Shown here: in pieces, positions 2,470 to 64,000 of the stretch
Position numbering within the stretch: the first letter of the stretch is position 1
Layout: each line of letters begins with the position of its first letter
Assembly (NCBI RefSeq): GCF_000968055.1
Contig: NC_022538.1
Coordinates: 248,001-312,000 of the forward strand
Origin: Alteracholeplasma palmae J233
GTDB lineage: Bacteria; Bacillota_I; Bacilli_A; Acholeplasmatales; Acholeplasmataceae
Direction of reading: 5' to 3'
DNA length: 64,000 bases
Position numbers and translations under genes: made by a program
Notes under the pieces: model-generated
What the model was told of the DNA's origin: nothing
Seen by the model: only the letters and a program-made list of their open reading frames with translations
Database searches by the model: none

Positions 2470-3879
2470 ATGGATGACAATAAAAAAAAAATAGACCAAA
2501 TTGTTGGTGACTACCAATTTGGGTTTATTACAGATAGTAAACCAGTTTTAGATACTGGAAAAGGTATCAATGAAAAAATTGTTAGACAAATTAGTGAAAT
2601 TAAAAAAGAACCAGAATGGATGACAGACTTTAGACTTAAAAGTTATCAAAAATTCTTAGAAATAAAGAATCCATCATGGGGGCCAGATTTATCATTTATC
2701 GACTTCCAAGATTTTACATATTATATTAAACCAAGTGACAGAGCTGAAACAAATTGGGATGAAGTGCCAGAGAAAATCAAACAAACATTTGAAAAACTGG
2801 GTATTCCAGAAGCTGAAAGAAACTACTTATCAGGGGTTTCTACACAATTTGAATCAGAAGTTGTTTATCATAATACACAAAAAGAATTAGATGATTTAGG
2901 AGTAATCTATGTAGATACTGATACTGCATTAAGAGAGTACCCTGAATTGTTTAAAAAGTATTTTGCTACAGTTGTACCATTTGATGATAATAAGTATGCT
3001 GCATTAAATAGTGCTGTATGGAGTGGTGGTTCATTTATATATGTGCCAAAAGGTGTTAAAGTGCCTAAACCACTACAGTCATATTTTAGAATTAACTCAG
3101 ACCAAATGGGCCAATTTGAAAGAACATTAATTGTAGTAGACGAAGGTGCGCATGTTAATTATGTAGAAGGTTGTACAGCGCCTGTTTACTCAAACGACAG
3201 TTTACATGCGGCAATTGTTGAAATTATTGTTGAAAAAGACGCAACATGTCGTTATACGACTATTCAAAACTGGTCAGATAATGTATTAAACTTAGTAACT
3301 AAAAGAGCCTTTGTTTATGAAAATGGACATATGGAATGGATTGATGGAAACATAGGATCAAGAGTGAATATGAAATATCCATCATGTATTCTATTAGGTG
3401 AAAGAGCTAAGGGTACTACAATTTCTATTGCCTTTGCTGGTAAGAACCAATGGCAAGATGCAGGGGCTAAAATGATTCACTTAGCTCCAAATACCACATC
3501 AAGTATTGTTTCTAAATCAATCAGTCGTGCTGGTGGAGCAGTAAACTATAGAGGTAAAGTTCACTTTGGTAAAAATGCTAAAGGCGCTAGAGCTAATATA
3601 GAATGTGATACCATTATTTTAGATGATTTTTCTACAAGTGATACAATTCCTATTAATGTTGTTAGAAATAGTGATGTTTTCTTACAACATGAGGCAACAG
3701 TATCTAAAATATCAGAAGAACAATTGTTCTATTTAATGAGCAGAGGGTTAACACAAGAACAAGCAACAGAAATGATTGTAATGGGCTTTATAGAACCATT
3801 TGCTAAAGAACTTCCAATGGAATATGCAGTTGAATTAAACCAACTAATTAAACTTGAAATGGAAGGTTCAATTGGATAA
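2470..3879 (+). CDS. sufB: SufB, Fe-S scaffold subunit of SufBCD
   Basis: 469 residues, the usual SufB length. SufB/SufD right-handed beta-helix core, with the C-terminal [19 protein letters not shown] motif also seen in sufD. In SufB the nascent cluster is assembled with SufD and SufC. It is the last gene of the operon and is followed directly by a terminator. Codons 4-7 contain a run of ten A bases (2482-2491) that stays in frame, so long A runs are tolerated here in a gene likely to be essential. This matters for judging the A9 run in cas9. A GGAGGAG site at 2458-2464 supports the ATG chosen. Confidence 0.95.
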
Positions 3880-57598: not shown

Positions 57599-60184
57599 AT
57601 GAAAAAAATATTAGGTCTAGATGTAGGGGTTACATCTGTTGGGTGGGCAATCATAGATGAAGAAGGAAATATTGTTAAAACAGGTGTTCGCTTATTTGAA
57701 GAAGCCTCAGCTAAGAATAACTTAGATAGAAGAACATTTAGAGGACAACGTCGACTAATAAGAAGACGTAATCAGAGAATTGATGATATGCGTTCATTGC
57801 TTATCAAGAATCTTTTAATTGATAATCAATTTAAGGTTTTAGATAATCCATATCAATTAAGAGAAAAAGGACTTAAAGAAAAATTAAATCATGAAGAGTT
57901 GGCTACAGTTCTCCTACACTATGCTAAAAGAAGAGGAAGTAGTTTAGAAGTAGTTGAAGAGGAAGGCATTAAAAAGGAAACAAGCACCAAATCCATATTA
58001 AACGAAAACGCAAAAGAATTAAAAGAAAAACAGTATGTTGTTAATGTGCAGCTAAATAGACTAAAAAAAGAGGGCAAACTTAGAGGTAATATTAATAATT
58101 TTAAAACTAAGGATTATGCAAAAGAAATTATAACATTACTAGATAATCAAAATCTGGATAGCGAGTTGAAGAAAGAAATTATTGAAATCATTCAAAGAAG
58201 AAGACACTTTTCTGAAGGGCCAGGAAACTTTAACTCTCCAACTCCATATGGTAGATATAGAGAGGTTACAGGAACTTTAAAAGAAAAAATAATTAAGGAT
58301 ATTCATGCTAATTATAGAAAGCAGTATCTTAATTCTAATTTTTCCATAGTATTTGATGATATCGAATATCAAGTATTTAAAAATGGAAGGATCGTAAATA
58401 AGGAAAAATACGATTTGATAGATTTAATGAGAGGAAAGTGTAGTCTATACCCAGACCAACCAAGAAGTCCTAAAATGGCTTTTTCAGCTGAAATATTTAA
58501 CTTATTAAATGATTTGAACAACCTTAAAATATTAAATAGAGAAAATAATAAAATAACTAAAGAAGAAAAAATAACAATTATAAATCATGTTAGAGAAAAA
58601 GGAAGTATCACAGTTCAACAGCTATTAAAAATTTTAAATGCTCAACAAGAAGAGATTAAAGGTTTTAGAATAGACAAAAATGAAAAACCAATCATTACTG
58701 AATTTAAGGGATATAAAAAAATACTAAAAGTTTATAAAGAATTAGATATCACAATAGATAGTGATGAAATACTTGACCGTATTATCGAGATATTAACACA
58801 GACACTTGTTGAAGAAGAACGTATCTTAAGTTTAAAAAAAGAAAAAATAAATGAAAGATTGATTGAACCTTTAAGCTTATTAACCGGTATTAAAGAATAT
58901 CACAGCCTATCTTTAAAAGCTATTTACCAGTTAAATAAAGAAATGTTAGAAGAATCACTGAATCAACAAGAAATAATTACTAACTGGGGGATTAAAAATG
59001 ATGATACTATTAAAGAATTGGTCTTAGATGAGTCACTTATATTAAGCCCAGTTGCTAAAAGAGCGCATAGAGAAGCCTTGAAACTTGTTAATCAATTGAT
59101 AAAAGAAGAAGGTAATTTTTCTAAAATAGTTATTGAAACTACAAGATCAAAGAATAGTTTAGATGAGATTAAGGAAATTAAAGAACTTCAAAAAAATAAT
59201 GAAAATAATAGAAGACAAGCAGAAGAAATTATTGGAGATAGAGCTAAGGAGTTAGTTAACAGTTCTAACATTTTAAAACTAAGACTTTACAATGAACAAA
59301 ATGGTAAGTGTGCTTACACAGGTGAAGCACTTAGCATTGATGCACTGTTAAATGATCCAAACATATACGAAATAGATCATATCATACCAATCTCCATTTC
59401 ATTTGATGATTCATACGCGAATAAAGTGCTTGTTACGCGTTCAGCTAACCAGAAGAAAGGTAATAAAACACCTTTTGGATACTTCTCTAAAGCTGATTTA
59501 GTAGCTAATTCAAAAATAAATAGTTGGAATATGTTTAAAGAAATAGTTCTTTTAAACAAAAATTATAGTATCAGAAAAAAACAAAATCTCCTATTTGAAG
59601 AAGATATCACAAAACATAGTGTTGTAAGTGATTTTATTAATAGAAATTTAGTAGACACAAGTTATGCAATAAGAAGTTTAATGACAACGTTAAAAAACTA
59701 TTTTAAATCAAATCATGTAGATACAACTATTATGACTATAAAAGGGAAACAAACAAACTATTTTAGAAAAACCGGAATGATTGCATGGTCAAGAAAGCAT
59801 CCTAAAAGAGAAAATCCTTTTAGAAAAGATAGAAACAAATATATCCATCATGCCATTGATGCTTTAATTATTGCAGGTTTATCAAATAGAAAATATATTA
59901 CTAAACTTTATAACTTAAGCCAAGAAATAGATATTGAAACAGGAGAATTAATAGAATATATAGATGCATCAGAAGACAGTAAATTAATTCAATATTTATT
60001 AAAAGTCGGTGAAGTTCAGGAAGAAGACGTTAAATTCTCGTGGAAAATAGATAGTAAACCAAACAGAAGCATGATGAACCAAACAATATATAGCTCAAGA
60101 ATTTTAGGTGGAGAATCGCTTTTATTAAGTAAAATAGATATATATAATTCAAAGAAAGAAGATTTTATAAAAAAAAATTATTAA
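57599..60184 (+). CDS. cas9: Cas9 N-terminal part: nuclease lobe, ends at frameshift
   Basis: 861 residues. RuvC-I Asp8 in ILGLDVGVTSVGWAI; arginine-rich bridge helix NLDRRTFRGQRRLIRRRNQR; RuvC-II Glu513 in IVIETTRSKN; HNH His594 in EIDHIIPISISFDDSYANK; RuvC-III with H751 and D754 in HHAIDALIIAG. All nuclease residues are present. The order and motif wording are closest to S. aureus Cas9 (1,053 residues). The frame ends early, at IKKNY, after an A9 run. Dropping one base gives 1,089 residues with the next feature. GGGAGGA supports ATG 57599; an upstream in-frame ATG at 57548 lies in the promoter. Alone it lacks the WED/PAM-interacting part. Confidence 0.93.
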   Translation: MKKILGLDVGVTSVGWAIIDEEGNIVKTGVRLFEEASAKNNLDRRTFRGQRRLIRRRNQRIDDMRSLLIKNLLIDNQFKVLDNPYQLREKGLKEKLNHEELATVLLHYAKRRGSSLEVVEEEGIKKETSTKSILNENAKELKEKQYVVNVQLNRLKKEGKLRGNINNFKTKDYAKEIITLLDNQNLDSELKKEIIEIIQRRRHFSEGPGNFNSPTPYGRYREVTGTLKEKIIKDIHANYRKQYLNSNFSIVFDDIEYQVFKNGRIVNKEKYDLIDLMRGKCSLYPDQPRSPKMAFSAEIFNLLNDLNNLKILNRENNKITKEEKITIINHVREKGSITVQQLLKILNAQQEEIKGFRIDKNEKPIITEFKGYKKILKVYKELDITIDSDEILDRIIEILTQTLVEEERILSLKKEKINERLIEPLSLLTGIKEYHSLSLKAIYQLNKEMLEESLNQQEIITNWGIKNDDTIKELVLDESLILSPVAKRAHREALKLVNQLIKEEGNFSKIVIETTRSKNSLDEIKEIKELQKNNENNRRQAEEIIGDRAKELVNSSNILKLRLYNEQNGKCAYTGEALSIDALLNDPNIYEIDHIIPISISFDDSYANKVLVTRSANQKKGNKTPFGYFSKADLVANSKINSWNMFKEIVLLNKNYSIRKKQNLLFEEDITKHSVVSDFINRNLVDTSYAIRSLMTTLKNYFKSNHVDTTIMTIKGKQTNYFRKTGMIAWSRKHPKRENPFRKDRNKYIHHAIDALIIAGLSNRKYITKLYNLSQEIDIETGELIEYIDASEDSKLIQYLLKVGEVQEEDVKFSWKIDSKPNRSMMNQTIYSSRILGGESLLLSKIDIYNSKKEDFIKKNY
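60169..60177 (+). other. A9 homopolymer at the cas9 frameshift
   Basis: Nine A. The frame of the downstream part is closed upstream by TAA at 60168-60170, and the cas9 frame by TAA at 60182-60184, so the join can only fall between 60171 and 60184. Eight A at this run (or a +1 skip) continues cas9 as ..DFIKKIINNKENVLMYQND.., which matches the S. aureus sequence INKSPEKLLMYHHDP at the same place. Confidence 0.9.
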
Positions 60185-60203
60185 TAATAAAGAAAATGTC
60201 TTA

Positions 60204-60869
60204 ATGTATCAAAATGATCCTACGACTTTTGAAATTGTAATAAAGGCTTTTGAGCAGTATAAACATGAAGAATATCCATTTAAAGTATACAAAGAGAATT
60301 ATGGTTATATTAGAAAATACTCAAAAAATAACAATGGTGCTCCTGTGATAAATATGAAATACTTAGGAGATGCTATAAAAAGTGAAGTAAAAGACTTATC
60401 TGATAGATATAATGTGGACGTCACAAAAAAGATGGTATTTCAATCTTCAATAAAGCCATTTCGAGTGGATGTTTATTACAATGGAATTCAATATAAAGTT
60501 GTTACTGTGACATATAAAGATGTAGTAAAAAAAGATGGAAAATATAGAATTATAAATTATACAGAAAAAATAAAAAAGAAAGAAATAGATAAAAAATATA
60601 TATTTAGATTTAGTTTATTTAATAATTCTATAATAACAATTGATAATAGTGAATTTTATAGATTTAAAGGAATTGTAGATCTTGAAAATAAATTTGAAGT
60701 TACAACTGCAAATTATCGACCAGTTAAACAAAATAAAAATAATAAAGAAGAACTTGATAGAATTAGAAGAGTGATTAATAAAAAAATCAAGAACATAACT
60801 AAATATAATGTATCAAATACGGGGAAAATAGCGAAAGTAGAAAAGGAAGAGTTGAAATTAGTTTTTTAG
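60204..60869 (+). pseudogene. cas9: Cas9 C-terminal part: WED and PAM-interacting region, out of frame
   Basis: 221 codons from ATG 60204; the frame is open from 60171. ENYGYIRKYSKNNNGAPVIN corresponds to the S. aureus Cas9 stretch GNYLTKYSKKDNGPVI, followed by FRVDVYYNGIQYKVVTVTYK (Sa: FDVYLDNGVYKFVTV) and the C-terminal NITKYNVSNTGKIAKVEKEE (Sa: IKKYSTDILGNLYEVKSK). No ribosome site precedes ATG 60204. No stop or frameshift interrupts it, so decay, if any, is recent. If expressed alone it would be an isolated PAM-binding domain. The tracrRNA promoter begins in its last codons. Confidence 0.88.
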
Positions 60870-60880
60870 TATGATAGAAT
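60852..60880 (+). promoter_or_regulatory. tracrRNA promoter
   Basis: TTGAAA (60852-60857), 17 bases, TAGAAT (60875-60880) preceded by TGA. It overlaps the end of cas9. The pattern repeats the guaBA promoter base for base in both hexamers and spacing. Confidence 0.75.
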
Positions 60881-60886
60881 ATCTTT

Positions 60887-60985
60887 GTACCTTAAGGTAC
60901 TTAGATAGCAAAGGTTACGAGGACCTAGCACAACAAGGGAATTTTTCCCGAGTTCGAATCCGTATTATATACGGGTTCTTTTTTT
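60887..60985 (+). ncRNA. tracrRNA
   Basis: The anti-repeat TTAGATAGCAAAGGTTACGA (60901-60920) GG and CACAAC (60929-60934) is complementary to the CRISPR repeat: 20 of 22 identical to its reverse complement in the first block (the two differences are G-U compatible) and 6 of 6 in the second, with an internal 6-against-4 bulge. After it come stem-loop GGGAATTTTTCCC (60937-60949) and a 10-base-pair terminator hairpin (60956-60978), with seven T (60979-60985). The layout anti-repeat, AAGG, short hairpin, terminal hairpin is the S. aureus type. The 5' end is inferred from the promoter. Confidence 0.9.
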
Positions 60986-60991
60986 ATTTTT

Positions 60992-61882
60992 ATGAGCTGG
61001 CGTGTAGTGTATATTGAGGAATCAGAATATCTAAGCCTTTACTTAGACAATATTAAAGTTTTAAAAAACGGAGAAGAACTACTGATTCCAATATCAGATA
61101 TACATACTTTGATTTTAGATAATTATAAAATAAACTTGTCTGTACACTTAATAAATGCATTAACAAAAGCAAATATTAATTTTATATTGTGCGATGTTGA
61201 TCATTTACCTCAAACAATTGTGCTACCACATTTAGGAAACAAACTAGGATTTCAAATGCTTAATAAACAACTATCATGGGATGATTTATTAAAAGGCGAG
61301 ATACAACAAAAAATTGTTAAAAATAAGATTAAAAATCAATATGAGTTACTTGAGTTTTTAGAAAAGGATGAAGCAATTATTGAAAAAATCAAAGAATATG
61401 AAACACAAGTAGAGCTAGCCGATAGGACAAATCGGGAAGGACTAGCTGCTAAACTTTACTTTAAAGCCTTATTTGGTAAAGAATTTAAAAGGTTTTCAAA
61501 TGATGTTATAAATGCAGGACTTAATTATGGATATTCAATTCTAAGATCTCAAATATCAAAAGTACTAGTAGCAAAAGGACTTAATACTTCTATAGGCTTT
61601 TTTCATATTGGAAGGGAAAATGAATTTAATTTAAGTGATGATATTATAGAACCTTTTAGACCAATTATAGATTATTTCATTTATAAAAATTTACTAGAAG
61701 AAAAACTGTTTTTAAGAGAACATAGATTAAATATTATTAAACATACAACAAGTAATGCCGTAATTGATGGCAAAAGTCAAACTATTTTTAATACCATTCA
61801 AATATATGTTGAAAGTATATTAAATTACTGTGAAGATAGAAAAGAAATAAAGAAAGTAAGTATTAATTATTATGGGTTATGA
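60992..61882 (+). CDS. cas1: Cas1 integrase
   Basis: 296 residues, type II Cas1. The three metal ligands are Glu149 (NREGLAAKLYFKALFG), His205 (FFHIGRENEFN) and Glu220 (DIIEPFRPIIDYF), with the same numbering as in S. pyogenes Cas1. It integrates new spacers with Cas2. The ATG is six bases after the T tract of the tracrRNA terminator, and no ribosome site is visible, so translation may be weak, leaderless or from readthrough RNA. It overlaps cas2. Confidence 0.95.
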   Translation: MSWRVVYIEESEYLSLYLDNIKVLKNGEELLIPISDIHTLILDNYKINLSVHLINALTKANINFILCDVDHLPQTIVLPHLGNKLGFQMLNKQLSWDDLLKGEIQQKIVKNKIKNQYELLEFLEKDEAIIEKIKEYETQVELADRTNREGLAAKLYFKALFGKEFKRFSNDVINAGLNYGYSILRSQISKVLVAKGLNTSIGFFHIGRENEFNLSDDIIEPFRPIIDYFIYKNLLEEKLFLREHRLNIIKHTTSNAVIDGKSQTIFNTIQIYVESILNYCEDRKEIKKVSINYYGL

Positions 61883-62195
61883 ATTTATGAGATTAATTTT
61901 GTTTTTTGATCTTCCAATTCAAACAAATGATCAAGTAAGAATTTATACTAGGTTTAGAAAGTTATTAATTAGTAAAGGATATTTGATGTTGCAGTATTCG
62001 GTATATTCTAAGATCTTAAATAATAGAGATTCAGCAGTTCAGCATATGGATTATATAAAGAAAAATGTACCTAATGAAGGACATATAAGAATGATGTTAT
62101 TAACAGAGAAACAATATTCAAGAATGGAGATTGTCATAGGCGGTAAAAGTAGGACTGAACAACTGATTACCGTCGATCCATTTTTAAAATTATAG
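61872..62195 (+). CDS. cas2: Cas2
   Basis: 107 residues from ATG 61872, or 102 from ATG 61887 (MRLILFFDLPIQTNDQ), the more usual N-terminus. The ferredoxin-like fold with FFDLP carries the conserved Asp. It forms the Cas1-Cas2 complex for spacer acquisition. No strong ribosome site; the start overlaps the end of cas1, so coupling is likely. It ends 10 bases before csn2. Confidence 0.94.
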   Translation: MGYEFMRLILFFDLPIQTNDQVRIYTRFRKLLISKGYLMLQYSVYSKILNNRDSAVQHMDYIKKNVPNEGHIRMMLLTEKQYSRMEIVIGGKSRTEQLITVDPFLKL

Positions 62196-62205
62196 GAGGA
62201 AAAAG

Positions 62206-63093
62206 TTGAATAAGATAACAGTAAAACTAAGAAAAGAACGAATTGAATTTGGTATTAATCAATATAAGTATTTAATAGGATCAAATTATAGTGATAAACA
62301 TCAAATTGTTCAAAGTATTAAAAAGTGTTTTGAAAGAGGCAATAATAGTGAGTTTGCCATAGATAATAATTCAGAGTTATGGTTTAAGATTAATGATAAA
62401 GATGTTGATATCAGAAAGTATAAACTATTTAATATAACATCAATATTTGATTATAAGACAGAAATCAAGCTCGGAGCTAAGTCAATTATCCTAAATTATC
62501 TAGAGGCAATATTTAAAGATATTGAATATGATGATTTAGTTAATACATTAAGAATCATAAAAGATGACCTAGGTGTAAGTATGAGTGATAGAATTGAACA
62601 AAATAATCACTATAAACTGAATTTAAAATTTGAAGAAATAACATTAAAAGGCCTTCTAAAACAAGTTGAAGTAAGTCTATATAAGGACCAATTAATATCA
62701 AATGAATATGATTTAAGTTATGAGGATTTAGTTTTATTCCAGATTGATTTAATTACTAAAATAACTGAAAATATACGAGATTTTGAATATATATGTATCA
62801 TCGAAATACCTGTAGTAACCCAAATAATAAAAGAAGCGATAGAAAAAGTTAAGCAAAAAAATCTTATGATCTTAATAGTGTCTAATGATAGTTATATAAA
62901 AAATGTGGACATAAATAATTTTTTATCTTTAAACAAACAAATTATTGATTTTTCTGATGAGGTAAGCATTTATAATGATATTATTCTAAATCTTGAAAGA
63001 AATAGTACAATTCAAGATATAAGAGAACATGTGTCACTGTATTTTAACAGTGAAGGCAGACAAGATGATTTAAATTTAAGTAAAATTCTCTAA
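62206..63093 (+). CDS. csn2: Csn2-like type II-A adaptation protein
   Basis: 295 residues from TTG 62206 with AGGAGGA in front. Its place between cas2 and the array and the pattern of the last 100 residues (LMILIVSNDSYIKN, FLSLNKQIIDFSDE) fit Csn2. The length lies between the short (about 220) and long (about 330) Csn2 groups. Csn2 is a ring-shaped DNA-end-binding protein needed for spacer capture in II-A systems. No P-loop is seen. The call depends largely on context; this is a divergent member. Confidence 0.72.
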   Translation: MNKITVKLRKERIEFGINQYKYLIGSNYSDKHQIVQSIKKCFERGNNSEFAIDNNSELWFKINDKDVDIRKYKLFNITSIFDYKTEIKLGAKSIILNYLEAIFKDIEYDDLVNTLRIIKDDLGVSMSDRIEQNNHYKLNLKFEEITLKGLLKQVEVSLYKDQLISNEYDLSYEDLVLFQIDLITKITENIRDFEYICIIEIPVVTQIIKEAIEKVKQKNLMILIVSNDSYIKNVDINNFLSLNKQIIDFSDEVSIYNDIILNLERNSTIQDIREHVSLYFNSEGRQDDLNLSKIL

Positions 63094-63135: not shown

Positions 63136-64000
63136 GTTGTGTTACCCTCGTAATTTTTGCTATCTAACAACCATCTATCATCATAGCCCACTCGTATCTT
63201 AGTTGTGTTACCCTCGTAATTTTTGCTATCTAACAACTAATAGGCGTTCTATGGTTGTAAAATCAAGTTGTGTTACCCTCGTAATTTTTGCTATCTAACA
63301 ACCTAATATCGTAGGCACAACTTTAATCATTAGTTGTGTTACCCTCGTAATTTTTGCTATCTAACAACGTGTTGCTAGTACTTCTGTAGCGTGGATATGT
63401 TGTGTTACCCTCGTAATTTTTGCTATCTAACAACATGAAGCAATAAAGAAGTATAACGAAATAAGTTGTGTTACCCTCGTAATTTTTGCTATCTAACAAC
63501 AACCTAAAGAGTTTAACACTAAAGTATTGTGTTGTGTTACCCTCGTAATTTTTGCTATCTAACAACCTTTAGGATGGCATAAAGATGATGGGTCTAGTTG
63601 TGTTACCCTCGTAATTTTTGCTATCTAACAACCATAAGAAAGGTGGTGATATAATGCTCTATGTTGTGTTACCCTCGTAATTTTTGCTATCTAACAACAC
63701 AGTTCCCCACTATCTAACCTAACAACTCGTTGTGTTACCCTCGTAATTTTTGCTATCTAACAACATCAGCAATGACTGCTAATACTACTTTATTGTTGTG
63801 TTACCCTCGTAATTTTTGCTATCTAACAACTAGAAGTTTGAAACGCTAACAATATTTACAGTTGTGTTACCCTCGTAATTTTTGCTATCTAACAACATGC
63901 AGAGCTTACAGCACTCGCAAATGCCAGTTGTGTTACCCTCGTAATTTTTGCTATCTAACAACTGGTGTATTTGAGTATATTGGATTAATTCCGTTGTGTT
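63136..64000 (+). CRISPR. CRISPR array, 13 full repeats plus one cut by the window end
   Basis: The 36-base repeat starts GTTGTGTTACCCTCG and ends TGCTATCTAACAAC. All 13 complete copies are identical by eye. Starts: 63136, 63202, 63267, 63333, 63399, 63465, 63531, 63597, 63663, 63729, 63795, 63861, 63927; a partial at 63993. The 13 spacers are 30 bases, except spacer 2 (29 bases, 63238-63266). The repeat resembles the S. aureus type (GTTTTAGTACTCTG..). Pairing with tracrRNA shows transcription from left to right. The array runs off the window. The spacers look unrelated to each other. Confidence 0.98.

Follow-up and report, generated by a model that had tools for sequence, protein, structure and literature searches.

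The CRISPR-Cas locus of Alteracholeplasma palmae J233 raises the question of what has happened to its cas9 gene, which reads as two parts in different frames: has the gene been broken by mutation, is it still expressed across the break, or is the break an artefact of the deposited sequence? The split as such is already known. Ipoutcha et al. (2019) described a degraded CRISPR/Cas system in this strain with cas9 in two parts, found that the concatenated parts rank near the top of their set in likeness to SaCas9, and argued that the broken gene explains how the strain survives a self-targeting spacer (spacer 13) in a FAD-binding protein gene (PMC6882279). We are dealing with the same strain and locus, the same two-part SaCas9-like cas9 and the same spacer. 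In the passages of that paper available to us, what interrupts the open reading frame (ORF) is called 'a mismatch', and neither a run of nine A (A9) nor slippage nor the sequencing method is discussed. The genome consists of one contig of 1,554,229 bases (NC_022538.1); the stretch that was analysed (genome positions 248,001 to 312,000, 64,000 nucleotides) is called the window below, and positions refer to it unless given as genome positions.

The components of a type II-A system (cas9, cas1, cas2, csn2, a tracrRNA region and a CRISPR array) are found together in the window (Table 1); what is lacking is a single intact Cas9 reading frame. The cas1, cas2 and csn2 genes are all open frames matching their families, with no match for csn2 in Pfam at E 0.001. 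The candidate tracrRNA region, between cas9 and cas1, contains an anti-repeat (60890-60935) matching the array on the reverse strand (80%, E 0.002), folds with a z score of -5.48 and ends in a terminator-like stem; the search for promoter-like sites in it performed at chance level, and Rfam gave no match for a tracrRNA. The array begins just after csn2, and 35 of its 47 spacers are distinct. Since blocks of spacers come back within it (genome positions 311136-314270; 18-23 are repeated as 28-33, and 34-36, 35-36 and 23 return further along), it has grown by block duplication.

Table 1. Features of the A. palmae J233 cas9 locus, in window coordinates.
Feature	Position	Strand	Evidence or remark
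cas9, upstream frame (RuvC, HNH; 861 codons + stop)	57599..60184	+	ATG behind GGAGG; TIGR01865 E 2.6e-177, residues 3-853; HNH_4, RuvC_III
A9 run at frame break	60169..60177	+	direct reading; longest run of the gene
cas9, downstream frame (WED, PAM-interacting domains), one base out of frame	60171..60869	+	open frame; Pfam; PDB matches
tracrRNA region (candidate): promoter-like site 60852-60880, anti-repeat, terminator stem from 60956	60852..60985	+	repeat match, fold
cas1	60992..61882	+	TIGR03639 E 1.2e-81
cas2	61872..62195	+	TIGR01573 E 5.1e-22
csn2 (type II-A marker), TTG start behind AGGAGG	62206..63093	+	PADLOC Csn2 E 1.5e-93
CRISPR array, 48 repeats, 47 spacers in all	63136..64000	+	continues beyond the window to genome position 314270

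The start of cas9 was placed at the ATG behind GGAGG, in preference to that of the mechanically called ORF (57548), which has no ribosome-binding site. As the initial annotation had claimed, the catalytic residues are all upstream of the break, where the RuvC-I, RuvC-II, HNH and RuvC-III motifs were located. The downstream frame encodes the WED and PI2 domains (PF18061, E 2e-15; PF18070, E 9.1e-10), and a PDB search with it returned Cas9 chains (best E 4.8e-25). In the alignments with PDB chain 7enr, the upstream part reaches chain residue 818 and the downstream part covers residues 817-1043. For both parts, the top PDB hits are Staphylococcus aureus Cas9 (SaCas9; PDB 5axw, which we take to be this protein) or its compact form; SaCas9, in contrast, is encoded in one continuous frame, and its PAM-contact region is only partly alike in the alignment. 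The same protein is thus continued downstream, as had been proposed, but the open frame comprises 232 codons, the 221 reported earlier being counted from the first ATG (60204).

Direct reading of the join agrees with the initial annotation: nine A occupy 60169-60177, the upstream frame (frame 0) ends at a TAA at 60182-60184 and an opposing TAA lies at 60168-60170, while dropping one A yields, in frame and in length, the 1,089-residue S. aureus-like Cas9 announced there. The frame change is confined to 11 nucleotides (60171-60181). A9 is the longest homopolymer in cas9 (the remaining runs of at least 7 are all A7), and because the break falls on this longest run, which a break confined to 11 nucleotides would touch with a chance of 0.006, it belongs to the homopolymer, be it through replication, transcription or sequencing. 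The A9 run by itself is unsurprising: lysine codons and an AT-rich genome are enough to explain it, and of 2000 simulations based on the codon use of this genome, 66% put a run of at least 9 somewhere in such a gene. As in transcriptional-slippage genes, an A/T run of at least 9 leads into an open frame that continues the protein, and, as in phase-variable genes, the tract at the break sets the frame by its length.

If cas9 were an old pseudogene, further decay would be expected after the first break, and none was found in stops or invariant columns. From 33 relative loci considered, 21 carried a full Cas9 by a motif filter and 12 did not; invariant columns were counted against 19 of the 21, two more distant relatives (L066 and L068) being left out. 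A. palmae retains all 100 of them (90/90 upstream and 10/10 downstream), and with no further stop either, the earlier statement that the downstream part is otherwise undamaged is upheld. With a looser column cut, it retains 173/185 upstream and 22/27 downstream, both inside the range of the relatives, the downstream value (0.81) being low in that range (0.66-1.00). In the downstream part, about 7% of random substitutions would create a stop, and the probability of 232 downstream codons without one is 0.09 under neutral drift at 5% divergence. Judging from these comparisons, the break would be recent, rescued, or not real, the decay test being compatible with each; since no other decay is seen, we take it as recent in the explanation preferred below.

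Comparing the site across relatives, as proposed initially, showed that the A9 run is not kept, no run of at least 8 being present at the break site in any of the 21 relatives, all of them distant. An A8 occurs elsewhere in cas9 in 8 of the 21. The scan of genome contigs with the upstream segment gave only relatives with 42-47% identity (two listed), and no close relative by which to date the break was found among them; scans for relatives of the downstream part in genome contigs, and of Cas9 in viral contigs, returned none. Within the family, 1 of 88 genomes matches A. palmae Cas9 and it is A. palmae itself, the only genome of its species in the sample; the single further genome of the genus matches neither cas9 part. 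A matching Cas9 (E 1e-30 or better) occurs in 31 of 394 other genomes of the class. Among the matches listed, the stops noted were only TGA, in what are presumably mycoplasma-code genomes, and one TAA (in G273). In a genome of the same family that has no match to A. palmae Cas9, a lone leader end with half a repeat (G014:C1:1648581-1648609, reverse strand) is 97% like the start of the A. palmae array over 29 bases, and could be what is left of the same CRISPR locus or else a solitary crRNA-like element.

The behaviour of other long runs in this genome bears on whether the break is real. A pattern search located 43 A9 places, which merge to 39 A/T runs of 9 or 10. Eighteen of these, including four of length 10, lie within ORFs of at least 116 codons that stay open across the run; shorter or doubtful ORFs were left out of this count (among them L035, with 163 codons and a TTG start abutting the run, and one in L038, with 129 codons and antisense to a counted ORF). 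The run lies in the first 15 codons in five of the 18, in the last few codons in one (L031) and well inside in 12. A coding-signal test found the same frame on both sides in 15 and different frames in three (L011, L031 and L038 at genome position 1541434), and Pfam matches with E 0.01 or better exist for 16 of the 18, two of these falling short of the curated cut-off. In four cases (whiA, rnpA, and the genes for V-ATPase subunit C and pyrimidine-nucleoside phosphorylase), the run falls within the Pfam domain. As 18 of 39 runs are in open ORFs and four inside Pfam domains, the assembly can handle such runs. Another 18 lie between genes, at the ends of genes, or in ORFs that are short or doubtful. 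An A10 within the window (2482-2491) lies in frame with a sufB-like gene, at its codons 5-8.

Three genes appear to change frame at their run: cas9, an XRE-like HTH regulator (A9 at genome positions 207270-207278), in which the coding signal shifts too and which has an HTH match in Pfam, and a putative small membrane protein (A9 at genome positions 96974-96982, just after the start), where the change was read by eye and has no support from the coding-signal test or Pfam. When a coding signal was required on both sides, eight runs of at least 9 were in frame and one (cas9) was not, and for runs of 8 the figures were 15 and none. At runs of 6-7, the frame seems to change in eleven cases, which were read from their flanks as gene junctions, a reading and not a proof for each. 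In the 61 window genes, A8 is observed five times against 14.3 expected (1 of 300 synonymous shuffles as low), and A9 or longer three times against 9.6 (0 of 300 as low); T8 is absent against 1.4 expected, T runs being too few to tell. The under-representation in coding DNA that is seen with transcriptional-slippage genes thus holds for the window genes, and because A-runs of at least 8 are depleted there, they count as slippery in A. palmae by the criterion of PMC1088944. In an OmpR-type response regulator (L015, near genome position 190375), a frame change away from any long homopolymer divides the receiver domain, of which Pfam matches positions 43-110 only.

The explanation we prefer, giving it not quite an even chance, is a real and recent slipped-strand indel in the A-run that put the last fifth of cas9 out of frame. 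An ordinary slip in an unconserved tract would then have broken a type II-A, S. aureus-like cas9 that is sound in all other respects, and the main product would be an 861-residue Cas9 without the WED and PAM-interacting domains. We infer that the base change is real and that this truncated protein is inactive, that is, that Cas9 is off. As happens in other AT-rich bacteria, RNA polymerase slippage on the A-run could produce a little full-length protein that is not under selection; such a trace of full-length Cas9 would be plausible given the depletion of A-runs, which is what slippery runs lead one to expect, and would probably be a side effect. A recent slip is favoured by the position of the break on the longest run, the absence of decay, the unconserved tract, the depletion of A-runs and the long runs kept in frame in housekeeping genes. 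Against it stand the 454 method and the two further genes apparently shifting at A9, which fit a systematic miscall equally.

Homopolymer error is a known weakness of 454 pyrosequencing. The chromosome of J233 was determined by Sanger and 454 sequencing (PMC4221730), and there is a real possibility, although we lean against it, that cas9 is intact in the strain and the deposited run has a wrong number of bases. As would be expected in this case, the rest of the locus appears intact, and the two additional genes with an apparent shift at A9 point the same way. However, a miscall has to be reconciled with the runs of 9-10 in 18 open ORFs and with the 15 runs of 8 with coding signal on both sides, none of which changes frame. 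The three A9-broken genes also look dispensable, as real mutations would suggest, in numbers too small to test.

The self-targeting spacer has been the published argument for a lost Cas9 (PMC6882279), and loss of Cas9 does fit it, spacer 13 matching its own genome over 30/30 bases (genome positions 156219-156248). The target, named there as a FAD-binding protein gene, reads to us as a putative thioredoxin reductase gene (trxB) from sequence alone. The 3' flank of the match is TGTAACAAAA, with T at the third position. An arginine in the downstream part of A. palmae Cas9 aligns with SaCas9 R1015, which we take to be the arginine reading G at the third PAM position. As far as this alignment goes, TGTAACAAAA may not be a PAM for A. 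palmae Cas9, and if G is needed at the third position, the self-match is no target at all. With T where the aligned arginine suggests G, the argument is weak, and we did not accept the spacer as proof of an inactive Cas9. Nor could a PAM be deduced from the spacers, for lack of usable matches: the array had no match in plasmids and one 23-base match (E 1) in phages, and patterns for two spacers had none in viral contigs.

A broken frame does not necessarily mean that no Cas9 is made. It is unlikely, but conceivable, that a few per cent of full-length protein arises by polymerase slippage or rare reversion, enough for acquisition and too little for lethal targeting of the trxB-like gene. A little less likely again is that the leak has been selected, slippage on A9 giving a minority of full-length Cas9 whose low dose tolerates the self-spacer yet allows acquisition. 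Precedents with tracts of A9-A11 are Thermus dnaX, Citrobacter tssM and, as a proposal, genes of Blochmannia (PMC1088944, PMC4256274, PMC3017870). The slippage genes at 9A/9T runs described by Baranov et al. (2005), who also describe slippage at the A-tract of Thermus dnaX, resemble cas9 of A. palmae in having A9 at the break, an open downstream frame and runs under-represented in coding DNA; by their criterion, slippage in replication and in transcription are inseparable (PMC1088944). In Citrobacter rodentium tssM1, poly-A likewise precedes an early stop and the C-terminal domain lies in another frame, but that tract is A11, slippage (about 20-25%) is shown at the RNA and protein level and both forms are needed (PMC4256274). 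The A. palmae case differs from both in being known from DNA alone, and from the genes of Baranov et al. in its unconserved tract (PMC1088944). By analogy with Citrobacter tssM, where it is shown, and the Blochmannia genes, which suggest it, such breaks can leak full-length product.

For a selected leak speak the depletion of A-runs of at least 8 in window genes, the undecayed downstream part and the 12 spacers leader-proximal to spacer 13, type II-A acquisition needing Cas9 (PMC6990116). Yet the run is not conserved, recent breakage explains the absence of decay equally well, block duplications may have altered the order of the spacers, and with a T where the aligned arginine would read G, the flank of the self-match may not be a PAM.

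Phase variation classically works through a homopolymer within a gene that determines the frame by its length, and A9 in cas9 conforms to this pattern. That the run mutates back and forth at a high rate, with Cas9 switching under selection, nevertheless seems very improbable: the one sequence of the species shows no length variant, the window genes avoid such runs and the tract is absent in the 21 relatives, although, these being distant, a species-specific switch is still compatible with its absence. No report of phase variation of Cas9 or CRISPR was found in the open-access literature, part of the candidates being judged by title and the start of the abstract; one paper among the candidates (PMC13431127) concerns phase variation of PorA and Blp instead. 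Among the four readings offered in the initial annotation, fresh knockout and sequencing error come out as the best, whereas the on/off switch found no positive support in the distant relatives. Least probable of all is a two-piece Cas9 made by re-initiation at ATG 60204, with assembly of the halves: this ATG comes just after the upstream stop and engineered split Cas9 proteins are functional, but its ribosome-binding site is weak, matching in just three bases (AAG) like 131 of the 220 internal Met codons of long window ORFs (10 of the 42 first ATGs in such ORFs are no better, and the cas2 start also has only AAG), and a restart there would lose 11 residues of open frame.

If there is only a slip or a miscall, the present reading corrects or accounts for a CRISPR locus published as 'degraded', and cautions that the living strain may have an intact Cas9. 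If expression is leaky or switching, Cas9 dosage would be set by polymerase slippage, which would explain the tolerance of a self-targeting spacer, and frame slippage would serve CRISPR immunity as a means of dosing or switching. Elsewhere in the genome, three A/T runs of 9-10 are crowded into 3.6 kb (genome positions 1541434-1544996, L038), two of them near the 5' ends of ORFs and one ORF being AbiEii-like; these are possibly slippage-prone defence genes.
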